Below, in pieces: positions 26,671-27,411 of a stretch of DNA of 64,000 nt. The notes under the pieces are model-generated. The model was not told the DNA's origin. It made no database searches and saw nothing but the letters and a program-made list of their open reading frames with translations. Source of the stretch: Methanocorpusculum sp. GTDB lineage: Archaea > Halobacteriota > Methanomicrobia > Methanomicrobiales > Methanocorpusculaceae. The stretch covers positions 124,001 through 188,000 of the forward strand of contig NZ_JAUSPQ010000008.1 in assembly GCF_030655665.1 (NCBI RefSeq), read 5' to 3'. Numbering within the stretch: position 1 is the stretch's first letter; each line of letters begins with the position of its first letter. A program made the position numbers and the translations under genes.

Positions 26671-27052
26671 TGATTTGAACGTCACCACAGGGACTTAGAG
26701 TAGGATTTACGCGGTGCTGGTTTGGGTCCGATTCGGGAGGGGTAAGGCTGGATGCGGAGACCTGAGATAAGAGTCAACCGCGAAGTTTTGCGGGAGAAGT
26801 TCTCTTTCGCTCATCTTTTCCCGCCATTTTTCTCTCATCAAAACAGCCCCTTCGCAAGTCTGTCGACTTGCTCAGCTAAGGGACCTAAAGGTCCCCGCCT
26901 CCACTCGAAAACCACCATTTCCACTCCAAAATTACCCTCCGTCGATCAAAAACACCCCTTTTTTGACCAGCAAAAAACCATCACCCAACAAAAAACACGC
27001 CCATTCCTGCCGATTTCGCAGGCAAAACAACAAAACTATATAAAGGATTGCC

Positions 27053-27308
27053 CAGGCGCCTGAAAAAAACGATAACCCCCGACAGACTGCCTACCTAGGT
27101 AGTGACCTAGAGCGGAAGAAAAATCTCTCATCAATCACTTTTTTTTTAGGCGCCTAGTCTCTTATTATTATTATTTTATGTACATTGCAGAAGAGAGAGA
27201 GAGAGAGAGAGAGAGAGAGAAAAACCAAAATAAAAATTACTCCTATATAAATTAGTAACGCACTAGGTAGGTAGTTTTTCCGGGGGTATCGTTTTTTCCA
27301 GGCGCCTC
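27053..27308. repeat. Long inverted repeat flanking AT-rich core (origin-like or mobile-element scar)
   Basis: The left arm 27053-27104 and right arm 27261-27308 are near-perfect inverted copies (about 46 of 50 positions). Each holds a GGCGCC palindrome, a run of five G/C (CCCCC left, GGGGG right) and a CTACCTA element. The left arm includes the 12-bp palindrome CTACCTAGGTAG (27091-27102). A third GGCGCC palindrome is at 27149-27154. The 156-base core has a T9 run, TTATTATTATTATTTTAT and a GA run. Inverted G-string boxes around an AT-rich unwinding region are the layout of archaeal origins, but no orc1/cdc6 gene is in the window. Confidence 0.6.
27192..27221 (+). repeat. GA dinucleotide run
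   Basis: An uninterrupted AG/GA run of about 30 bases inside the core of the inverted repeat. It is probably length-variable between strains by slippage. Confidence 0.9.
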
Positions 27309-27411
27309 CCTATCAATTTATATACTATTATCTCACCAAATCGAAAATACGCCGAATCCTGCCGATTTCGATTTTTACCCACGAAAAATCATCATCAAAA
27401 ATACATCAAAA

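Follow-up and report, generated by a model that had tools for sequence, protein, structure and literature searches.

IS200/IS605 elements and REP/REPIN sequences combine single-strand hairpins, internal sequence that matches the flank, and palindromes, and the element described here resembles them in these respects. IS110 bridge-RNA elements carry an internal guide that matches the target, an idea with a possible parallel in this element. Prokaryotic MITEs, in the available part of one account, are short, multicopy, intergenic and non-coding, have inverted ends and form stem-loops, and all of this applies here (PMC10969869). Archaeal oriC regions with ORB clusters, as far as the available part of their description goes, have an AT-rich stretch flanked by inverted TTCCACTCG motifs, a layout that the element shares (PMC4010727). 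In the oriC2D region of Haloarcula hispanica, an ORB-rich titration region, initiator motifs are placed away from the unwinding region, a second point of likeness within the available excerpt of that report (PMC3936714). A prior description of the element was not found among the open-access literature searched. With modest confidence, we regard it as a non-autonomous, palindromic, MITE-like element that has spread as a nested composite. It is a nested, lineage-specific palindromic element of methanogens with a stem held across copies by compensatory change, and its dispersed repeats may be tied to the binding motif of the replication initiator.

The window is the whole 64-kb stretch of Methanocorpusculum DNA that was analysed. 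The first-pass annotation described an inverted repeat around an AT-rich core at 27005-27370, and its components were recovered. The arms (27054-27098 and 27263-27307) are 45 nt each, 87% complementary and spaced by 164 nt, and they contain the reported CCCCC/GGGGG strings. Three GGCGCC boxes (27055-27060, 27149-27154, and 27301-27306), the palindrome CTACCTAGGTAG (27091-27102), and the T-run, TTA-run (27162-27175) and GA-run between the arms were all found. The 14-bp direct repeat TCCTGCCGATTTCG is exact (27005-27018 and 27357-27370), and the full direct repeat on either side of the inner part extends to 38 nt at 82% identity. The best inverted-repeat score within 27005-27370 was 27, compared to a mean of 8.2 and a maximum of 11 in 100 dinucleotide shuffles. 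Similarity between copies runs outward past these limits to inverted tips at 26899 and 27462, giving a nested composite of approximately 564 bp in which outer arms enclose a TATA-box-TATA palindrome, which in turn encloses a core of approximately 240 bp (Table 1). In 15 composite copies, similarity begins with TTCCAC on the left and stops with GTGGAA on the right, and the composite holds the outer arms, the 38-nt direct repeat, the mirrored TATATAAA boxes, and box1/box3.

TABLE 1. Positions of the features of the composite element in the window.
Feature	Position	Strand	Remark
Whole composite, tip to tip	26899..27462	.	Mean column identity in 15 copies: left, 0.52 outside and 0.84 inside; right, 0.82 inside and 0.47 past the tip
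Left tip, ORB-half-like CTCCACTCGAAA, one mismatch to TTCCACTCGMAA	26899..26910	+	Genus ORB read by eye
Second ORB-half-like site TTCCACTCCAAA, one mismatch	26919..26930	+	
Right tip, exact TTCCACTCGCAA, same sequence as the half-ORB next to cdc6-1	27451..27462	-	
38-nt direct repeat, left member	26981..27018	+	82% to 27333-27370; a core-less copy (L222) has a single unit
38-nt direct repeat, right member	27333..27370	+	
TATATAAA, left	27037..27044	+	Right-hand mirror reads TTTATATA
TATATAAA, right mirror	27317..27324	-	
box1, CAGGCGCCTG palindrome, followed by A-run	27053..27062	.	
Core, approximately 237 bp between two 9-bp copies of CAGGCGCCT	27062..27298	.	Matching stretch exactly absent in G003:C13, at the orthologous locus of another copy
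Left half, closed hairpin of approximately 102 nt; box1 and A-run pair with T-run and box2	27054..27155	+	
Strongly conserved motif CTCATCAATCAC	27127..27138	+	Also recovered by BLAST; it was the search pattern, so its conservation is partly by choice
T-run and box2, AGGCGCCT	27139..27155	+	
(GA)n run	27193..27220	+	Length varies from copy to copy
Right arm with GGGGG and box3, CCAGGCGCCT (27298-27307)	27263..27307	-	

The core is spanned by no listed open reading frame of at least 80 aa in the window. A 96-aa frame on the plus strand (27412-27702) begins within the right arm; a frame with the same start at another copy, G000_326, diverges afterward (L079:5418-5657), and the frame is probably a product of chance. 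A second repeat family, with palindromes containing AAATCTTCGATTTGC or similar, adjoins the element (27570-27985). It is far more abundant, with many matches per carrier genome among the matches listed.

Dispersed copies, terminal inverted repeats (TTCCACTCG-type tips and arms), and the absence of a transposase frame of its own are features of MITEs, and all three were found here. The stretch is no lone site; it recurs within its own genome, and 35 copies were found in total. Within the same genome, a search with 27000-27380 turned up two more complete copies on the contig of the window (88 and 83% identity), and contigs C1, C4, and C10 gave partial matches. BLAST against 41 genomes gave matches in eight, one of which (G033, from outside the genus) matches the GA run alone (query 189-221). 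A covariance model derived from 27 left halves was run with stricter filters on 150 genomes of the order (25 Methanocorpusculum and 125 others, drawn from a larger group). It returned 35 copies in seven genomes, all seven within the 25 Methanocorpusculum genomes, and none in the 125 genomes outside the genus; all 35 copies had already been seen before this search and 27 of them are in the model. Two extra rows were known copies matched weakly on their opposite strand. Carriers have between two and ten copies (G000, 6; G003, 4; G013, 5; G014, 6; G016, 10; G017, 2; G020, 2). In the available part of PMC10035134, M. labreanum and M. parvum are among the six species of a named environmental clade, and six of the seven carriers appear to belong to that clade. 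Plasmid and phage records gave no matches to the element. A viral carrier was considered and rejected; the sole viral match of CTCATCAATCACTTTTTTT lies inside a coding frame on an unrelated phage-like contig. One copy, G016_289 (L065, G016:C1:284900-295000), has a long GTAG expansion in its right arm and adjoins an apparent CRISPR array accompanied by cas4-cas1-cas2-like frames, named by reading.

The layers of the composite also occur apart. Core-less outer elements were found at G003:C3:25624-25847 (one repeat unit), G013:C12 (two units, one of them partial), G013:C8 (partial), G020:C12, and G020:C4, and G003:C13 has a single GGCGCC without a core. Diverged cores without enclosing arms exist as well. 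Outer-arm fragments lie within approximately 500 bp at 10 of 18 loci, a hand count in which two G017 loci and one G013 locus were viewed over 0.6-1 kb.

The window copy lies between a btuF-like gene and pheT, both named from their translations by reading, and it is absent from the orthologous intergenic region of G003, G013, G014, and G016. At that site, 1.3-1.5 kb of the window is unmatched, or matched by 66-80 bases, in the four relatives; since this stretch, which includes other repeats, lacks a counterpart, no clean target duplication can be read there. At another locus, G003:C13 is collinear with G016_647 on both sides; with G014_666 it is collinear on the left and through the element. 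Both of these copies have the core. The two matching halves of G003:C13 overlap by 9 and 10 bp, i.e., a direct repeat flanks an exact presence/absence of the core at this one locus. Inspection by eye showed no target duplication flanking the whole composite. The outer flanks of G000_326 (G000:C8:326708) and G003_3 (G003:C3:31577) are collinear, and the whole element is in opposite orientation from tip to tip. Unmatched stretches of approximately 140-710 bp separate the element from these flanks, so that inversion and independent insertion look the same here. Some sites are old. At one locus, three class-2 copies (G000, G014, and G016) have right flanks that match at 87-90% over approximately 950-1040 bp. 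Orthologous sites in three species, together with compensatory changes in the stem, suggest a role beyond mere presence.

The search for an autonomous partner covered core ends and the Y1 and IS110 transposases. The core-end motif AAAAACGATRNCCC has 30 sites in five of six genomes, 29 of them inside known copies. The odd one (G016:598946, contig C1) is an isolated end motif, AAAAACGATATCCC, that corresponds to none of the copies from the model search, and the AAAAACGATRNCCC sites of the six genomes revealed no longer element bounded by these core ends. No Y1 transposase (Y1_Tnp) was detected in 12 genomes, and no IS110 transposase scored over the cut-off in these 12, with one weak match in G014. 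A core copy in G013 (L091 ~6500, G013:C15:56701-56810) is broken after the T-run by a transposase-like open frame, which we take to resemble the start of an IS5-type transposase; this copy was omitted from the box, fold and co-variation analyses. The suggestion of a palindromic mobile element made in the first-pass annotation is supported by dispersed copies, a species-specific window copy, and no coding content. The sequence is best filed as MITE-like, not as a proven MITE, because an autonomous relative and a target duplication of the whole element were not found.

The first-pass annotation compared the inner arms with ORBs and named a secondary origin as one possibility; that proposal was not supported for the arms, and what stands of it is that the tips of the element resemble half of an ORB. 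Against the cdc6-1 origin region, the inner arms share only short AT-rich words. As had been noted, no cdc6 is adjacent (cdc6-1 is on C6, cdc6-2 on C7, and the element on C8), and local GC skew ranges from -0.057 to +0.090 in 4-kb steps with no informative inflection at 27 kb. The cdc6-1 locus has inverted ORBs, CCCCCACCCCTTTGTTGCGAGTGGAA and TTCCACTCGCAACAAAGGGGTGGGGG, around an AT-rich stretch (oriC, L300:954-1284), and from these ORBs beside cdc6 it is predicted to be the active origin. A single-copy origin was rejected for the element on its copy number (2-10 per carrier) and on the ORBs beside cdc6-1 elsewhere.

The genus ORB reads approximately TTTCCACTCGAAAYAAAGGGGTGGGGG by eye. Thirteen bases, TTTCCACTCGCAA, are common to the right tip and the ORB beside cdc6-1, and the left tip is one base off the shared 12-mer TTCCACTCGMAA. 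These tips may be Orc1/Cdc6-1 binding sites, i.e., inverted ORB halves, and the copies may be dispersed titration sites or weak origins; we consider this reading unlikely, with several points in its favor. Exact TTCCACTCGMAA occurs at seven sites in the genome of the window (three at the origin and four at element tips), and at 48 sites in ten genomes, of which by our own count 25 are in origin clusters, 18 in elements, and five elsewhere; three of these five were inspected and read like coding sequence. The origin was placed by cdc6-1 in six of the ten genomes and predicted from full ORBs in the others (G004, G008, G017, and G019). All three sites with at most one mismatch in the window fall within the element (shuffles: mean 0.65, maximum 2). 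The tips coincide with the similarity boundaries, and mean column identity there is 0.92 and 0.95 compared to 0.84 and 0.82 inside. Haloarcula hispanica offers a precedent, since the available part of PMC3936714 describes ORB titration and a G-rich inverted repeat between inverted ORBs. Against this reading, the full ORB with its G-string was not found in the element tips, the TTCC end points outward, opposite to oriC, and the copies are not beside cdc6. Left tips often have one or two changes, and the cdc6-2 contig of G000 has no exact TTCCACTCGMAA site. With one mismatch allowed, enrichment over whole genomes is weak (26, 33, and 29 sites in G000, G014, and G016 compared to 18, 13, and 20 for a reversed control). 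A canonical origin is unlikely because the G-string is missing and the orientation is opposite. The ten composite copies of the GGCGCC/GACGTC type in G014 and G016 tend to be remote from the cdc6-1 origin, at a relative distance of 0.72 on average, with a p value of 0.008 that assumes independent copies, an assumption broken by two orthologous pairs. Orientation relative to the replication fork, worked out by hand with the terminus assumed opposite the origin, has no bias (five of six alike in G014 and five of ten in G016). If Orc1 binds the tips, titration of an archaeal initiator by mobile repeats could be tested in a methanogen that can be cultured, for example M. labreanum (six copies).

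In this element, box1 is followed by an A-run, and a T-run precedes both box2 and box3. The boxes are GGCGCC in most composites, GACGTC in G014_488, and CACGTG-like in G003_11, G016_1312, and G016_985. Co-variation was assessed by permutation on ten types, merged and cut by one rule, two of which are GGCGCC (box1-box2, p = 0.00015; box1-box3, p = 0.00035). Without GGCGCC (eight types), the p values were 0.017 and 0.012, and the own box fitted better than the boxes of others in only five of eight types in each test. This replaced an earlier test on 12 types with hand-cut boxes that followed no single rule (p = 0.0011 and 0.0001; without GGCGCC, 0.011 and 0.0013), in which G000_C10, G000_C1, and G017_C10 fitted neither own box better than those of others.

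The left half can be folded into a hairpin. In minimum-energy folds, box1 and the A-run pair with the U-run and box2 in all nine left halves chosen from 34, with z-scores ranging from -4.5 to -0.9; the centroids of G003_11 and G013_C9 retain little of the stem. In alignment A3, which holds 27 of 34 left halves (seven similar ones were omitted), standard pairs occupy 80.9% of the cells of nine box pairs, compared to 17-55% when the boxes are slid. Eight of these nine pairs have changes on both sides, and covariation is 0.546 compared to 0.289 in shuffles; the number of pair types is not above shuffles (218 of 500 shuffles were as high). RNAalifold on the 27 left halves gave no structure, and the stem was then taken from the single-sequence folds and its pairs counted, so this was not a blind choice. 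Mismatches on the plus strand are 48 G-T compared to 17 A-C (39 compared to 12 with identical boxes merged), which weakly hints, since the copies are related, that folding takes place on the plus strand. For the right half, the minus strand gave a fold that does not improve on shuffles (z +1.9).

These pairing results would also be expected from a family of structured non-coding RNA genes in which the left half is the RNA and compensatory changes hold the stem. The uniform folds, the two-sided changes and the excess of G-T mismatches agree with such genes, which we nevertheless judge improbable. Archaeal promoter-to-start spacing would put the start near 27065 for TATATAAA at 27037-27044. An RNA from there starts within the A-run and lacks box1, and the 84-nt piece folds like shuffles (z -0.5). 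The wide spread of fold z-scores, the two poor centroids, and the results for RNAalifold and pair types also argue against it. Rfam gave no matches at the gathering score for five loci, and a further Rfam search gave only a sub-threshold CRISPR-repeat match (E 0.43). The species also differ, at one locus, in how the element is oriented to the flanking genes.

The three boxes could also be copies of one palindromic protein-binding site in a host regulatory or segregation element, with the co-variation tracking a changing protein instead of pairing. The boxes are near-palindromic, lie beside A/T-runs, and are at a fixed distance from the mirrored TATATAAA in composite copies, and near-palindromes do not let base pairing be fully separated from repeated inverted protein sites. 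However, different box types coexist within one genome (GGCGCC with GACGTC in G000 and G014, and GGCGCC with GACGTG in G016), which one changing protein fails to explain. In G003_12, box1 and box2 (TATACGTGTA/TACACGTATA) keep their complementarity while box3 fits less well. We consider the protein-site explanation quite unlikely.

The MITE-like reading has a possible mechanism. An outer palindrome with ORB-half-like tips would enclose the TATA-box-TATA palindrome, with the core of approximately 240 bp set in its central box. A transposase or recombinase, either lost or unrecognised, would catalyse movement in trans, and its substrate may be the single plus strand folded with box1/A-run against T-run/box2. 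Insertion at the box, or precise excision between direct repeats, would account for gain or loss of the core, and the data fit either. A bolder version, which we hold to be very improbable, is that the core of this non-coding element picks its site by base pairing, with box2 as a re-writable guide that must match the palindromic flank (box1/box3), and that the ends of the outer carrier were taken from the initiator half of the origin box, with Orc1/Cdc6 perhaps acting on this carrier. Were box2 a guide, this would be a new minimal mode of target choice.

Comparison with described systems helps to place the element. It differs from IS200/IS605 elements in that no Y1 transposase was matched in 12 genomes and its core is bounded by inverted arms, and from IS110 in that no transposase was over the cut-off in the same number of genomes. 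In contrast to archaeal oriC, within the available part of its description, it lacks the G-string, has reversed polarity and no cdc6 beside it, occurs in many copies, and is missing from the window site in four relatives (PMC4010727). The oriC2D region, in the excerpt available, is an ORB cluster downstream of cdc6E, whereas the element would represent dispersed half-motifs (PMC3936714). Compared to prokaryotic MITEs in the available account, it has no autonomous partner among the sequences searched, and it has nested palindromes, an internal box that co-varies with flanking boxes, and ORB-half ends (PMC10969869). The co-varying boxes and ORB-like tips make the element stand out.
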